A stretch of 44,923 nucleotides of DNA from a virus, in IMG/VR virus record IMGVR_UViG_3300048591_000257, positions 1 through 44,923 of that record. One strand, given 5' to 3'. The translations under genes and the position numbers were made by a program. The notes below the pieces were generated by a model. It was given only the letters and a program-made list of their open reading frames with translations, had not been told where the DNA came from and made no database searches. Of the stretch, positions 5,039-41,713 are shown piece by piece; the stretch's first letter is position 1; the number at the start of each line of letters is the position of its first letter.

Positions 5039-5060
5039 CTCATTACCTCCACTTTCACAA

Positions 5061-5089
5061 TGTATAAAAGGCTATCGGGATAACGTCAA
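5061..5089 (-). promoter_or_regulatory. Sigma70-like promoter of the leftward early operon
   Basis: On the minus strand TTGACG (5089-5084) is followed after 17 bp by TATACA (5066-5061). Transcription would start near 5054, leaving a leader of about 15 nt with GGAGG before the ATG at 5038. The -10 region overlaps a TACATTGT motif (5058-5065), which suggests control at this site. Confidence 0.55.
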
Positions 5090-5107
5090 GTATTATTTAA
5101 TTATTTA

Positions 5108-5118
5108 TTTACATTGTC
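5108..5118 (+). promoter_or_regulatory. TTTACATTGTC motif before the rightward replication operon
   Basis: One of eight TACATTGT-type sites, here on the plus strand 24 bp before the helicase ATG. No convincing sigma70 -35/-10 pair was found at normal spacing around it, so it may be an operator or an unusual promoter element. Confidence 0.4.
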
Positions 5119-5142
5119 GATAAGGTGTGAAAGGATTGGCGC

Positions 5143-8505: not shown

Positions 8506-10401
8506 ATGTTCAAAGTATTCCCTTGCGGTGCAAACAAACACCCACTCATAAACGATTGGCAAGCCAAGGCCAGTAATGATCCTGCTCAAATCAAAGCGTG
8601 GCAAGATCAGTTCGGTCAGCACCTTGCGTATTGGGGATTACCTACTGGGTCTATGAATAACATCATCGCACTTGATGTAGATGTGAAGAAGGCTAATGGG
8701 TTTGAAACACTAAAGCAATTCCCACTCCCTCCAACCATGAGTCAGACAACACCAAGTAAGGGTGCGCACTATGTATTTCAATACCCTAATGGCGGGTTCA
8801 CTTATGGTAACAGGGTGAATATGTACCCTGGTATTGATAGGCGTGGTGAGGGAGGCTACATCTGTGTGTATGGTTTTGATAACACACCTATTGGTAAGGT
8901 GCCCGACTGGTTCATTGAAGATGTGGTTAAGGGTCCGACCTACCTCAAGGGTCCAACTATCACAACCTCACCACAGGTAGCAGCACCACAGCTTGAAGCT
9001 ATCCTCGCCACTATAAGGGACGCTGCTCAAGGGGAGCGCAATCATACCCTCAACTCGGCAGCGTTTAAGGTGGGTCAGCTTATCGCATCTGGTGGGGTGT
9101 CGAAAGAGTACGCTGAGTCAGCACTGTACCATGAGGCAGTTAAGATAGGGTTACATCCTCGTGAGATCCAAGCTACCCTCAACTCCGGCATCAAAGGTGG
9201 GCACGAGAAGCCTATCGTCTCACCCTTTGGAGTACCAGATGCAACTGGGTTACCTAAGATAGAGATAGTAAAGCCTTGGAAACCTGAGCCTTTCTCCGCA
9301 CTAGACTTATTCAACACCGCACATCTTAAGAAACCACAACTATTTAAAGACTGGTCCACTCAGGATATCCACATCACAACTGCTGATGGTGGCACAGGTA
9401 AGACAACCCTCAAATTGTACGAAGCTATATGTTTGGCATTGGGTGAGAGGTTCTTAGGGTTTGATTGTATGGGTGAGGGTAAGACTCTCTTCATTACAGG
9501 AGAAGACAGTGCTCCTAAGATAGCAGCAATGATAGGTGCAATAGCAAAGCAGATGGGTGTGCTTGATGATAGTGTCAGGCTTAACAAAGTCTTAACAAAT
9601 ATCTTAGTTAAAAAAGACACCGACCTATGTCTGATTATTAAGGATAAGCAAGGGTTCTTACATCCTAACCTCCAAGCAATGGACCAAATCATTGAGACCA
9701 TCCATGAGTTCAAGCCCAACATGATTGTCTTTGATCCCATCTCTTCCTTCTGGGGTAGCGAGGCGGCACTGAATGATATGGCAAAGGCCGTGAGTAAATT
9801 CATGATGAGGCTATTAGAAGAGAGTAACGCTTGCATTGAGATGGTTAACCATATGGGTAAGCAGAGTAGTAGTACCAAAGACATGACTCAATTTGCTGGT
9901 CGTGGTGGTACAGGGTTACCATCTCACGCCAGGGTATCAAGGGTACTAAGGGTAGTGGGTGAGGATGAGTACCTCGAGCTAACCGGCAAGGTGCTACCTG
10001 ACAATCAGTCTGCAATCATGTGCAACGTGGCTAAGTTTACTGACGGGTCACCACTTATCAACACTCCCTTTCTTATCATAAGAGAAGGGTATCTCTTTAC
10101 GAGGGAGTCTATTGATAAACCTAAAGTCAGAGAGGATAGGAATTTAATGGGTGATATGGAACGTGTGTTTAAGTACATCAGTCAGTGTCGAGCAGAGAGT
10201 AGGTACCCTACTAAGTCTATCGTGATTGCACACTTTGCTACTGATAAAGATAAACTTAGTAAGGCCAAGGTTGAACACGCCCTAGCTATACTAGGGTTCA
10301 ATGGATACGAGGGTAAGAAGGTAGCACAGGTACAAGGACCTGACGCTACCGTTAAAGAACAGGTGTATGTGCTGACTGATATGAACGGTAAAGAATTATA
10401 A
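8506..10401 (+). CDS. Bifunctional primase-polymerase fused to a RepA/AAA-type helicase
   Basis: A 631-residue fusion. The N-terminal half is an archaeo-eukaryotic primase (PrimPol): catalytic Asp57 and Asp59 in ALDVDV, and Ser84/His88 in the SKGAH motif. The second half is a RecA-fold ATPase of the RepA/AAA_25 type, with Walker A GGTGKTT at 295-301 and Walker B MIVFD ending at Asp410. The NHMGKQ segment near 450 fits the sensor region. Such fusions prime synthesis and unwind the fork, so this protein probably substitutes for separate DnaG and DnaB functions. A winged-helix-like tail is possible after about 545. Its stop lies 3 bp from the convergent stop of the next gene. Confidence 0.9.
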   Translation: MFKVFPCGANKHPLINDWQAKASNDPAQIKAWQDQFGQHLAYWGLPTGSMNNIIALDVDVKKANGFETLKQFPLPPTMSQTTPSKGAHYVFQYPNGGFTYGNRVNMYPGIDRRGEGGYICVYGFDNTPIGKVPDWFIEDVVKGPTYLKGPTITTSPQVAAPQLEAILATIRDAAQGERNHTLNSAAFKVGQLIASGGVSKEYAESALYHEAVKIGLHPREIQATLNSGIKGGHEKPIVSPFGVPDATGLPKIEIVKPWKPEPFSALDLFNTAHLKKPQLFKDWSTQDIHITTADGGTGKTTLKLYEAICLALGERFLGFDCMGEGKTLFITGEDSAPKIAAMIGAIAKQMGVLDDSVRLNKVLTNILVKKDTDLCLIIKDKQGFLHPNLQAMDQIIETIHEFKPNMIVFDPISSFWGSEAALNDMAKAVSKFMMRLLEESNACIEMVNHMGKQSSSTKDMTQFAGRGGTGLPSHARVSRVLRVVGEDEYLELTGKVLPDNQSAIMCNVAKFTDGSPLINTPFLIIREGYLFTRESIDKPKVREDRNLMGDMERVFKYISQCRAESRYPTKSIVIAHFATDKDKLSKAKVEHALAILGFNGYEGKKVAQVQGPDATVKEQVYVLTDMNGKEL

Positions 10402-10602
10402 ACTGCCATACTCTTTAAACGTAATACCTTTCTTATCTAAGTACCGAGTTAGCTTTACAAACCATAGTGGTATCTTCCTCGTACCTCGTACCCAGTGCAA
10501 CACAGCACCAGGTGAGAGACCAACAAGTAACGACAACTCACTAGCTAGTAACCTGTTCTCATGCAGTATCTCTTTAAGCTCATCAATCTCCATGTGTGTC
10601 AC
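10396..10602 (-). CDS. Small helix-turn-helix DNA-binding protein
   Basis: 68 residues from a GTG start at 10602. GGAGGT lies 6 nt upstream, a better spacing than for the internal ATG three codons later. Residues 20-40 (ASELSLLVGLSPGAVLHWVRG) form a clear Cro/CI-type helix-turn-helix. The GTG overlaps the stop of the 54-residue upstream gene (GTGA). As the last gene of the second leftward cluster it is a candidate repressor or transcription switch. The target is unknown; the TACATTGT sites are an obvious place to look. Confidence 0.8.
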   Translation of the reverse strand: MTHMEIDELKEILHENRLLASELSLLVGLSPGAVLHWVRGTRKIPLWFVKLTRYLDKKGITFKEYGSL

Positions 10603-12737: not shown

Positions 12738-13236
12738 TGGTAACACTCCACTCCCATACCTGACTGAGTATCTCACTGGCGTGGAGATAGTATCCCATAG
12801 TGATGCAGTCGTGCAGTGATGCTGACTCAGGTAAGTTATCTACCTTGGCAGACTCCGCATAGTCTGGGAATTGTTGGTAATGAGTGACTTGTTTGTGCGT
12901 CTTATGAGGTACCATTGAGTCAGCCATCTCACCTTGATTGCGCTCGAAGTCTTGCTCTGAATTAATATCCCAATCCACAAGTGTTGAGACTGCTCGGTGT
13001 ACTAGCTCAAAGATAATGTCGTTAGGCATATGAATTTGAAACACGCCTGGGCCATAGCGATGACACTCTCTAATCAATTCTTTGAGTGAGTCGTCTCTAG
13101 TGTAGGTTGATATCTTGTCACCATTGCTACGTTCTACTATCTCGAAGTGAGAGAGGGCGTCTCTTAGGTGAGTCAGTGGTGTTGGGGTCTCTCGTGTCTC
13201 GGGCTTGTCACATAAGCCAGTCTTATTAGTTACCAT
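12730..13236 (-). CDS. Hypothetical protein, first gene of the second leftward cluster
   Basis: 168 residues, no family recognised. It is hydrophilic, with several His (HKTHKQVTHYQQF at 110-122) and an aromatic C-terminus. GGAGACTGG precedes the ATG at 13236. A sigma70-like promoter lies 39-67 bp upstream. As the first gene it may be the most abundant product of this cluster, a position often used for early host-takeover proteins; no sequence evidence proves that. Confidence 0.62.
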   Translation of the reverse strand: MVTNKTGLCDKPETRETPTPLTHLRDALSHFEIVERSNGDKISTYTRDDSLKELIRECHRYGPGVFQIHMPNDIIFELVHRAVSTLVDWDINSEQDFERNQGEMADSMVPHKTHKQVTHYQQFPDYAESAKVDNLPESASLHDCITMGYYLHASEILSQVWEWSVTND

Positions 13237-13274
13237 ATTCCAGTCTCCAGTCTGGGTTAGGGTTGATTAGTGCC

Positions 13275-13303
13275 AGTATAGGGTAGTTTGCGGACAATGT
13301 AAA
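13275..13303 (-). promoter_or_regulatory. Sigma70-like promoter of the second leftward cluster
   Basis: On the minus strand TTTACA (13303-13298) and TATACT (13280-13275) are separated by exactly 17 bp, each one base from consensus. Transcription would begin near 13268, about 32 nt before the ATG. The -35 element is part of a TTTACATTGT motif, so a protein bound there would compete with sigma. Confidence 0.62.
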
Positions 13304-13313
13304 TTACAATGTA
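13294..13313 (-). promoter_or_regulatory. Tandem TACATTGT motifs
   Basis: Two copies on the minus strand, 12 bp apart (centres near 13298 and 13309), about one helical turn. The one at 13305-13313 is the full hyphenated palindrome TACA-T-TGTA. They overlap the -35 of the promoter at 13275-13303 and are candidate operator half-sites. Confidence 0.45.
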
Positions 13314-13317
13314 TAGA

Positions 13318-13493
13318 ATTATGCGGTGAGTCGTGGCGAAAAACTCGGTCAATTACGAGTATCCGATTTGTTTATTGGAGAGAGCGAGCGTAGCAAAGCT
13401 ACTCTCTCCATTGCATGATGGATTATCTCATAATTGTATCATGAATTTTGGATTTTGGCAAGTGACAATTTTTGTCACCACGCACCGCATAAT
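13318..13493. other. Multibranched structured element (candidate ncRNA or replication/regulatory DNA)
   Basis: A 176-base block with no credible gene. Its ends pair: 13318-13328 with 13483-13493 (11 bp perfect), extended after a 3-base bulge by 13332-13336 with 13478-13482. Inside are four hairpins in series: 13343-13347/13356-13360 (5 bp); 13376-13384/13402-13410 (9 bp) with inner 13391-13394/13398-13401; 13414-13419/13438-13443 (6 bp) with inner 13422-13426/13430-13434; and 13462-13468/13472-13478 (7 bp, 3-base loop). The last shares base 13478 with the closing stem. The whole resembles a large cloverleaf. Direction of transcription is unknown. Confidence 0.45.
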
Positions 13494-13496
13494 ATT

Positions 13497-13505
13497 TACA
13501 ATGTC
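13497..13505 (-). promoter_or_regulatory. GACATTGTA motif
   Basis: A minus-strand copy of the recurring motif, one base off the full form, just outside the right arm of the structured element, as the tandem copies are outside its left arm. The element is thus flanked by motif copies on both sides. Confidence 0.35.
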
Positions 13506-13781
13506 AAATACACTGTGTCCTCCAATGTACTATATCGTACCTATTCGATCTCACCATAATACCTCGCGTCTATCATAAAAGTATTGACAGGTCACAAGCA
13601 CTATGAGGGGTGTGAAATATACCCCATTAGAAATTTGCATACTATAAAAAATGCTTATAGTAGAGCCAACCAATAAACCTTTAATGATACTCATAAGTTT
13701 TCCTTATAGGTAGGCTATAAAAAAAGATTTTTTTCACCAGCCTATCACGACAAGCAATTCTGTCAACAGTACGTAGTGTCA
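13506..13781. other. Intergenic region with three hairpins
   Basis: No gene is credible here. Hairpins are at 13607-13625 (7 bp with one G-T, loop GAAAT), 13640-13662 (7 bp, 9-base loop) and 13711-13744 (outer 6 bp TAGGCT/AGCCTA around an A7/T7 inner arm). The third lies 38 bp after the stop of the leftward two-gene operon and has a T-run in both directions, so it is a candidate bidirectional terminator. A TTGACA at 13584-13589 lacks a partner at normal spacing. Confidence 0.4.
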
Positions 13782-14239: not shown

Positions 14240-14554
14240 TGGGTATTCCTTTCGTTAACTATTCACACACAAATGCAATGCAGCGAACGTGCCACTTTGC
14301 AGTCAATGTCAAGACAATACAATGACCATATGCAGTAAGTATTACAGGGTTTTGTAATTTTTACTTCACGGTCGGCAGGACTATGAAGAGATATAGATAA
14401 GCCTTAGTTCATGGGGAGGATGTGAGACATGGTAGGTCTTGCTGTAGGGGAGGATTTACCAAGGGGTAGGGGGTGGGCAAAAACTACGGGTAGACGTAGA
14501 CCTATAAAGGTCGTCCCAAAATCCCTTCCCAATTCACACGATCTTTCAATATCT
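14240..14554. other. Intergenic control region with G-rich tract
   Basis: No credible gene. It separates the leftward two-gene operon from the late operon. A minus-strand motif copy lies at 14318-14326. A plus-strand G-rich tract at 14447-14477 has four runs (GGGG, GGGG, GGGGG, GGG), able in principle to form a G-quadruplex. An inverted repeat GACCT/AGGTC lies at 14499-14512 around a TATAAA. Pac or cos sites cannot be identified by eye. Confidence 0.45.
14318..14326 (-). promoter_or_regulatory. GTCATTGTA motif before the two-gene leftward operon
   Basis: A variant of the recurring motif on the minus strand, 79 bp before the ATG at 14239, in the direction of that operon. TTGACA follows it on the same strand (14310-14305), but no -10 at the right distance was found. 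Confidence 0.35.
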
Positions 14555-14563
14555 TACATTGTG
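14555..14563 (+). promoter_or_regulatory. TACATTGTG motif before the late operon
   Basis: First of two plus-strand copies before the terminase genes, 235 bp upstream of the ATG. It points in the direction of late transcription. Confidence 0.4.
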
Positions 14564-14630
14564 CGTCATGCAGGTACCTCACTCATGCTTTAAAATATAC
14601 GCAAGCATTCCCCACGAACTTTACACTACT

Positions 14631-14639
14631 TACATTGTA
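14631..14639 (+). promoter_or_regulatory. TACATTGTA motif with overlapping TATACT
   Basis: Second plus-strand copy, full hyphenated palindrome. A TATACT (14638-14643) overlaps its end and is preceded directly by TG, so it could be a weak -10. No good -35 lies at 17 bp, which would fit a late promoter needing an activator. Confidence 0.4.
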
Positions 14640-39756: not shown

Positions 39757-40034
39757 AGCTACCTAGATGGTCGAAGAGTCTGGAAAGCTTTAGCGTGAGT
39801 GCAATTCTCATCTGCTTCATTTCTGGTTGTGCAACCGGAGAACCTGTCAGGTCTTTGTGTGAGTTGGATTTTGAAAGACAGATGTGTTGGTACGACCAGG
39901 AAGAACACGAAGGGATCTCATTTAAAGACATGAGGGTCCAGCAACTAGAGTGTCGAATCAAACCAAATGGTAACTGTCTTTATTCAATTGATAGTTATGA
40001 TCTCACACGTACCATTAAGGCACTAAAGAAGTAA
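39753..40034 (+). CDS. Lipoprotein, possible outer-membrane spanin
   Basis: 93 residues. A lipoprotein signal covers residues 1-26: positive start, hydrophobic core (SVSAILICF) and lipobox ISGC with the lipidated Cys at 26. The mature part is 68 residues with five more Cys, unusual for a spanin. The gene ends the lysis-like block (ATGA coupling). Rz1-type spanins are short lipoproteins, so pairing with the 38534 protein is possible. The last 20 bp overlap the antisense HNH gene. Confidence 0.65.
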   Translation: MKLPRWSKSLESFSVSAILICFISGCATGEPVRSLCELDFERQMCWYDQEEHEGISFKDMRVQQLECRIKPNGNCLYSIDSYDLTRTIKALKK

Positions 40035-40515
40035 TTTGGTTAAGTCTAGCGAACTCTCCAAACAACTGTTGGGCTGCTTTATTATAGGCTAACGCAGCTT
40101 CGATTTCACAATCAAAACAACCTAGTGATTTTAATTTTTTGTTTATTTGTATTCGCGCTCTCCATTTTCTATCTCTTTTAACCCAATAGACTCCTTTATA
40201 TTTTGATGTCGAATCTGCGTGAGACGACATATTCATGTTATTCTCACTATGATTACAGAGTCTCAGATTGACTTTTCTGTTATCTAATCTATTCCCGTTG
40301 ATGTGGTCTACAAGACTGGTTGTCGCATTGAGAACTGCCCTGTGCATATAGATGCTTTTTGTTTTACCTGTTTCTGTTCGTATTGATCTAGTCGCATAAT
40401 AACCATACGGTGTAACAAGAGCGGTCCATTTCCATTGATTGAGTCTCTCATAGTCTTCTGCATCAACTACCGCTATCTGTCCTTTGGTTAGTTTTATGGA
40501 TTTAATACTGGACAT
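40015..40515 (-). CDS. HNH endonuclease with AP2 DNA-binding domain
   Basis: 166 residues, opposite in strand to every other late gene. An N-terminal beta region is followed by the HNH core (69-95): VDHINGNRLDNRKVNLR with His71, Asn73 and downstream Asn. An AP2 domain follows (about 104-160), with KYKGVYW, then AALAYNKAAQQLFGEFARLN. This is a typical phage homing endonuclease architecture. It is inserted between the lipoprotein and a virion gene, with its 3' end reaching into the lipoprotein gene. Confidence 0.92.
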   Translation of the reverse strand: MSSIKSIKLTKGQIAVVDAEDYERLNQWKWTALVTPYGYYATRSIRTETGKTKSIYMHRAVLNATTSLVDHINGNRLDNRKVNLRLCNHSENNMNMSSHADSTSKYKGVYWVKRDRKWRARIQINKKLKSLGCFDCEIEAALAYNKAAQQLFGEFARLNQITSLVP

Positions 40516-41272: not shown

Positions 41273-41502
41273 ACCTCAAACCATTTGTTCATTGCTGCAT
41301 TAGCAAACTGAACTAAGAATGCCTTCTCAATTCCTGACATCTTAGATGTGACCATGAATTGAGAAGAGTCTTTGTTTAAAGCTATAAGCATCACACCATC
41401 AAAGTTATCAGCGCGATCCATAAACTCTTGGATCGCTTGATGAACTGATTGGTCTTTGGGCAGCTCAACTATTTTCAAGTGGTAGCTCTGGTTGTGAGTC
41501 AT
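41269..41502 (-). CDS. Small conserved phage hypothetical protein
   Basis: 77 residues, last gene of the long leftward operon. The pattern FDGVMLIALNKDSSQFMVTSKM followed by a helix resembles a small phage protein type with alternating strand-strand-helix; function unknown. The start overlaps the Acb2-like gene by 38 bp. Confidence 0.65.
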   Translation of the reverse strand: MTHNQSYHLKIVELPKDQSVHQAIQEFMDRADNFDGVMLIALNKDSSQFMVTSKMSGIEKAFLVQFANAAMNKWFEV

Positions 41503-41713
41503 CGACTTGGTTGTTGGGGTCTAACGCCATTGACTTCTTTGCAAAGAAACAAGCCTCCTCTAGCTTCGTCAGACAAACTGCACTAGCTCTAGGGTGGGTA
41601 AGTAAAGGTTCAAGATCATTGAGCATCTGCTCAAATATCTGTTGGATCTTAACAGCCTTCTCTTGTCCTAGTTTGTTTAGTTTCTGAAAACCAAAATAAT
41701 TATATTCATTCAT
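41465..41713 (-). CDS. Acb2/Tad1-type cyclic-nucleotide sponge candidate
   Basis: 82 residues. The helical hairpin with SAVCLTKLEEACFFAKKSMA (about 44-63) closely resembles the conserved core of the Acb2/Tad1 hairpin domain, in which an A/S-LTKLEEA-hydrophobic-A-K-A helix builds an oligomer that traps cyclic oligonucleotides. Such proteins block CBASS and Thoeris defence. The upstream helix QEKAVKIQQIFEQMLNDLEPLL is consistent. AAAGGAGAG precedes the ATG. The acidic, Pro-rich tail is variable. No structure check is possible here, and a different small helical family cannot be ruled out. Confidence 0.6.
   Translation of the reverse strand: MNEYNYFGFQKLNKLGQEKAVKIQQIFEQMLNDLEPLLTHPRASAVCLTKLEEACFFAKKSMALDPNNQVDDSQPELPLENS

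Follow-up and report, generated by a model that had tools for sequence, protein, structure and literature searches.

A strongly folded 176-base element between arrays of an operator-like site in the control region of an uncultivated tailed phage

In pRN1, a replicon with a primase-polymerase (Prim-Pol), a stem-loop of ~100 nt is required for replication and its fold is kept while its sequence diverges; a counterpart of this stem-loop origin has been proposed for phage BIP-1 (PMC4234260). RSF1010 (IncQ) uses a primase of archaeo-eukaryotic type (PMC4434180). Dispersed operators are the other close precedent: at lambda OL/OR, in the stoperators of mycobacteriophage cluster A and in the start-associated sequences of cluster K, a short phage-specific site is repeated at promoters or gene starts, as is also the case around the locus described here, where a phage control region contains a structure that is real and has strong statistical support.

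The locus belongs to IMG/VR virus entry IMGVR_UViG_3300048591_000257, which was analysed whole (44,923 bases; hereafter, the window). Genes for the small and large terminase subunits, a head-tail connector, a Prim-Pol/AAA_25 protein, a ResIII-type helicase, an Enc34-type SSB and a DUF2800/PD-(D/E)XK nuclease identify the record as an uncultivated tailed phage. Its terminase is at best ~32% identical to those of cultured phages, phiV10 included (50,697 phage records searched), and 52-66% identical to those of most of ~40 IMG/VR contigs, designated below by L and a number; a TerL profile found zero relatives among GTDB contigs, so that neither a host nor a prophage was identified. The Prim-Pol/AAA_25 replication protein is present in seven related records. 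The 168-aa protein encoded to the left of the structured element has zero relatives in IMG/VR or in 19 related records, and the 47-aa protein encoded to its right gave no match in a Pfam search.

Elsewhere in the record, the two HNH endonuclease genes (1707-2303 and 40015-40515, both on the minus strand, one with an AP2 domain) are homing elements. An 82-aa protein (41465-41713, minus strand) matches the Acb2/Tad1 hairpin domain weakly (PF24729, E 0.005, below cutoff), which makes it a possible anti-CBASS or anti-Thoeris protein. Close by, between convergent genes, positions 41281-41460 form the second most structured plus-strand window of the record and are probably a two-way terminator.

Table 1. 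Features of the control region and of associated loci; positions refer to the window, and promoters are consensus matches.
Feature	Position	Strand	Basis or remark
Two ACAWTGT sites, divergent gap before replication operon	5057, 5111 (5057-5117)		Exact copies
Prim-Pol + AAA_25 replication protein	8506-10401	+	PF09250, E 7e-20; PF13481, E 9e-19
Candidate regulator, 68-aa Cro/C1-like HTH protein	10396-10602	-	Pfam HTH_26, E 0.056, below cutoff
First leftward gene left of element, 168 aa	12730-13236	-	No family match
PL2, TTTACA-17-TATACT	13275-13303	-	Score 10/12; left edge of element
Left ACAATGT pair, 12 bp apart	13294-13300, 13306-13312	+	Exact copies
Structured element, outer arms and four inner hairpins	13318-13493		176 bases; non-coding gap flanked by two leftward genes
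Left arm	13318-13342	+	Pairs with 13469-13493: 11 perfect bp, then 2 + 10 bp
H1, ACTCG-8-CGAGT	13343-13360		DNA fold; minus-strand fold of 13338-13426
H2, two-part hairpin GGAGAGAG...CTCTCTCC	13376-13410		Pair probabilities 0.84-1.00 on plus strand
H3, two-part dyad CATGAT...ATCATG	13414-13443		DNA fold, pair probabilities
PL1, TTGCCA-17-TACAAT, extended -10 TG	13433-13461	-	Consensus match; predicted start near 13426
H4, perfect 7-bp dyad GTGACAA-TTT-TTGTCAC	13462-13478		Pair probabilities, sequence
Right arm	13469-13493	+	Pairs with left arm, 13318-13342
Right array, 12 bp apart	13498-13528	+	ACAATGT 13498; degenerate ACACTGT 13510 and CCAATGT 13522
Probable small membrane-protein gene, 47 aa	13551-13694	-	ORF with AAGGA before ATG; predicted coding
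Leftward promoter match upstream of 47-aa gene	13766	-	TTGACA-16-TAGGCT
Two ACATTGT sites, gap before terminase small subunit gene	14556, 14632 (14556-14638)	+	Exact copies

Folded as RNA, the element reaches -66.4 kcal/mol on the plus strand (z -6.75) and -62.5 kcal/mol on the minus strand (z -8.12), and on neither did any of 200 dinucleotide shuffles fold as well; DNA folding parameters give z scores of -6.7 (plus) and -6.2 (minus). Among the 180-nt windows of the record it ranks first on the plus strand and second on the minus strand after correction for GC content. A reading of the sequence alone had judged such a fold unlikely by chance and had named dinucleotide-shuffled controls as the check, and the energy is indeed far below that of shuffled sequence. 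The pairing which that reading had assigned to the two ends was recovered exactly: 13318-13328 and 13483-13493 form 11 perfect Watson-Crick pairs, and past the 3-base bulge AGT a further CGTGG (13332-13336) pairs with CCACG (13478-13482). Extended to 25 nt, the arms are 84% complementary, with pair probabilities of 0.94-1.00 for most pairs.

Inside the arms, all four of the consecutive local hairpins that had been proposed, two of them two-part, are present, but they do not together make up the optimal RNA fold, in which the outer stem, lengthened to 23 pairs across 25 positions, encloses H2 (the most stable inner stem, which forms on both strands) together with H3 and some weaker pairing. The plain four-hairpin form has an energy of -56.7 kcal/mol. 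Forcing H4 gives -63.7 kcal/mol at best; since this form lies only 2.7 kcal/mol above the optimum, the 3' arm can switch partner, and two arrangements compete. The closing stem, H1, H2, H4 and most of H3 consist of Watson-Crick pairs and can therefore form on both strands; this symmetry of the strongest stems makes readings as RNA and as DNA inseparable by sequence alone.

What surrounds the element is more specific. The TACAATGT-type sites that had been reported at its flanks are real, but a search allowing one mismatch found no enrichment across the record (55 hits against 53 expected); what stands out is the exact 7-mer ACAWTGT, which is concentrated in intergenic gaps and rare elsewhere, with seven of its ten copies falling in four gaps that make up 2.4% of the sequence (p = 5e-10). 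Tandem arrays of the site begin 5 bases to the left and 4 bases to the right of the arms, their innermost copies being 192 bp apart. Two further pairs of exact copies precede the replication operon and the terminase small subunit gene (terS), and site 5111 of the former overlaps the -35 box of a leftward promoter match at 5120. The site and the -35 box have the letters ACA in common at three predicted promoters (PL2, the leftward match at 5120 and a plus-strand match at 13291), a kind of sharing that is frequent among the promoter-like matches of these gaps.

In about ten relatives, ACAWTGT is likewise clustered upstream of terS, in the equivalent gap, and L030 carries up to 25 copies of the core within 5.5 kb upstream of terL. 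The bases flanking the core tend to agree inside one phage and to differ between phages (GAACAWTGTTC in L030 and L033; AAACAWTGTTT in L039, L013 and L002; TACAATGTA in L034), a pattern that looks as expected of a diverging repressor-operator pair. The arrangement ACAATGT-N5-ACAATGT-ATAG recurs in a single other contig of all IMG/VR, the terminase relative L013. Upstream of terS in L030 and L033, ACAWTGT also occurs inside genes, near gene starts, where it falls in signal-peptide codons reading LNNVQA or similar; these in-gene copies are a start-associated repeat. The two sites before terS in the present phage end a pair of 33-nt repeats (14530-14562 and 14606-14638; 73% alike, each ending CTTACATTGT), possibly late promoters, and similar repeats ending in ACATTGT precede terS in L017 and L018.

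Promoters were sought on both strands with a plain sigma-70 consensus. Matches scoring at least 10 are fewer in the record than a first-order Markov model predicts (11 against 20 expected), and four of the 11 lie in the ACAWTGT gaps, all directed leftward towards early genes (p = 9e-5). PL1, a putative promoter inside the element, has the highest sigma-70-type score of the record on either strand; chance alone would give 1.8 matches per genome with a score of at least 11, so PL1 is not significant alone, whereas the clustering and the direction of the matches are. H3 overlaps its -10 box and predicted start, and H4 lies directly upstream of its -35 box. The -35 box of PL2 shares its ACA with an ACATTGT site, and its predicted start precedes the start codon ATG of the gene at 13236 by ~30 nt. 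Relatives also have strong leftward matches in the equivalent gap, that of L008 being a full consensus.

Three functions had been offered for the element in the sequence-only reading: phage ncRNA, replication origin and structured operator. The last is favoured, since the flanking sites are a phage-specific, promoter-overlapping motif common to relatives; the other two are neither shown nor refuted. The explanation to which we lean, although we put it somewhat short of an even chance, is that leftward early transcription is governed from a compound promoter-operator region with the element at its core; the element would work mainly at the DNA level and give rise to a short structured leader RNA. 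From the computed fold, sites and promoter matches we infer binding, transcription and looping as follows. A regulator encoded by the phage, for which the 68-aa HTH protein is a candidate, would bind the ACAWTGT copies and, by covering the -35 box of PL2, block that promoter; contact between the two flanking arrays could shut or modulate the enclosed PL1, and H4 and H3 may serve as protein-binding dyads or extruded hairpins. Transcripts from PL1 would start near 13426, with H2 and H1 forming a stable leader, and would either end weakly at H1-UUUU (a length of ~89 nt) or read through into the gene at 13236; the 89-nt leader segment has a fold z score of -4.1.

Some observations stand against parts of this proposal. 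The right-hand sites at 13510 and 13522 are degenerate. The 68-aa protein, whose gene adjoins that of the primase and which has relatives in five of nine related records (E 5e-9 to 0.005), is a candidate for the regulator that may bind ACAWTGT, but its family match is weak and its presence does not track the number of sites across relatives: L039 has 13 sites but no detectable HTH homologue. Moreover, operators alone do not explain the overall fold, because ordinary promoter-operator regions need no 11-bp closing stem across 150 bases.

One rival reading is a stand-alone phage ncRNA, in which the whole element, transcribed rightward or leftward, forms a closed multibranched RNA with a function of its own. 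The strong RNA fold on both strands agrees with this, as do the four non-Watson-Crick positions of the 25-nt arms, two of which are G-U on the plus strand and none on the minus strand; G-U pairs nevertheless make up only 3 of the 48 confident pairs on the plus strand (3 of 39 on the minus strand) compared with 12.6% pooled in the shuffles, which argues weakly against an RNA under selection, so that the G-U signals, weak as they are, point in both directions. A plus-strand promoter match, CGGACA-17-TAGAAT, reaches as far as the left arm, but transcription from it would start inside that arm. On the minus strand 13338-13426 resembles a small RNA with a weak terminator, H1 being followed there by TTTT in terminator-like fashion, but PL1 would yield only the left half of the element, and a terminator scan found none beside the element on either strand. 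Rfam 15 gave zero matches over the whole record at gathering score and only chance-level matches in a permissive search of 13237-13781, and a tRNA/tmRNA search found none. A single-sequence covariance model, which is insensitive to distant homologues, recovered only the element itself from 53 related loci. We consider an autonomous RNA of this sort distinctly unlikely.

Searches by sequence were equally sparing. BLASTN of the region against phages and plasmids found nothing above chance, and the exact-arm pattern had zero matches in IMG/VR and three, a chance-level number, in GTDB contigs that are otherwise unlike the element; an alignable relative is thus absent from IMG/VR, from the phage and plasmid collections and, as far as the arm pattern goes, from GTDB contigs. 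At 994-1165 of the Bacteroidales contig L060, a long palindromic repeat shares the arm decamers TTATGCGGTG / CACCGCATAA by chance.

In the equivalent gaps of 15 phages, this one included, 12.6% of windows fall below z -3 compared with 2.3% in their coding sequence (p = 1.4e-6, an optimistic value given the overlap of the windows and the contribution of tandem repeats and palindromic sites). The gaps of relatives are also rich in inverted repeats, but these differ from the element in sequence and shape, and no shape is shared. Two candidate architectures were dropped: an operator-framed inverted repeat as a recurrent design, since with the core masked such arms occur only in this record and partly in L039 and L030, and a tandem site pair followed by a hairpin (suggestive in L013 and L031), since equally strong folds are common in these gaps. 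Upstream of terS, L008, L027, L010 and L014 hold other repeats (TACATATC, TCTCTAC and GGAGAGT units) with apparently fast turnover. A 47-bp perfect inverted repeat at the contig end of L028 (1-265) is either a terminal hairpin or an assembly artefact.

Such gaps, full of unrelated tandem and inverted repeats that apparently turn over quickly, raise the question of whether the element is debris that has survived by chance in a tolerant gap, either the product of local inverted duplications that arose in replication or recombination or a miniature transposon that has decayed. Its arms do resemble terminal inverted repeats, but a second copy is absent from the record and the related loci, the three GTDB contigs that share the arms do so at chance level and are otherwise dissimilar, and the flanking arrays are placed almost symmetrically. 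This origin of the element seems to us the least credible.

A replication origin deserves more weight, and we regard it as a minority possibility to be taken seriously. Opening of the AT-rich control region would expose hairpins onto which the Prim-Pol/AAA_25 protein is loaded or which prime a strand, and the initiator would bind the ACAWTGT arrays as its iterons. The phage and its relatives encode such a protein, the Prim-Pol replicon pRN1 depends on a stem-loop, strong folds are enriched in the equivalent gap of the group without conservation of sequence, and the strongest stems are strand-symmetric. The cumulative GC skew is low at 14-15 kb, but about as low at 4-5 kb, and it simply tracks gene orientation. 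The element, starting at 13318, lies ~3 kb from the replication gene, which ends at 10401, whereas the stem-loop of pRN1 lies directly behind its gene; the helicase part is AAA_25 (PF13481) and not SF3 as in pRN1. A search for DnaA boxes detected none, and an origin of that type was rejected. Finally, at the second locus (5057, 5111) the sites overlap promoter matches, so that operators fit better than iterons. Broader than the origin model, and in our view unlikely, is the idea that the element is the first example of a phage control or origin module whose functional signal is the multibranched single-strand fold itself, held between two regulator-site arrays, either as an origin using a cruciform or single-stranded DNA hairpin or as a new class of phage ncRNA, with phages of the group retaining a fold as such but not its sequence.

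In summary, the locus provides a testable control region and a defined operator-like motif for an uncultivated tailed phage group. If the fold is an origin, a second kind of Prim-Pol phage would join those few for which a structured origin has been proposed; if the element is transcribed, it would be a phage RNA outside Rfam.

Among known systems, retron msr-msd RNA also has complementary ends that enclose consecutive hairpins, but a retron was rejected, as a reverse transcriptase (PF00078) is absent from this record while control genomes gave matches. RSF1010, which has a hexameric helicase of AAA_25 type, combines hairpins with short direct repeats at ssiA/ssiB and oriV; its ssiA, however, is a single hairpin of ~40 nt, and no such sequence was recognised in this phage. 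With origins of the pRN1 family the locus shares a Prim-Pol replication protein and a large non-coding fold without sequence conservation, and it departs from them, beyond its position and helicase type, in being flanked by promoter-overlapping sites and in having a shape that was not found again in relatives. The likeness to the dispersed-operator phages lambda, cluster A and cluster K extends to flanks that differ between relatives and to a single control gap with promoters in both directions. Unlike in those phages, no repressor, integrase or lysogeny is evident here, the site is a near-palindrome repeated at a 12-bp spacing, and two of its arrays enclose a 176-bp self-complementary stretch.
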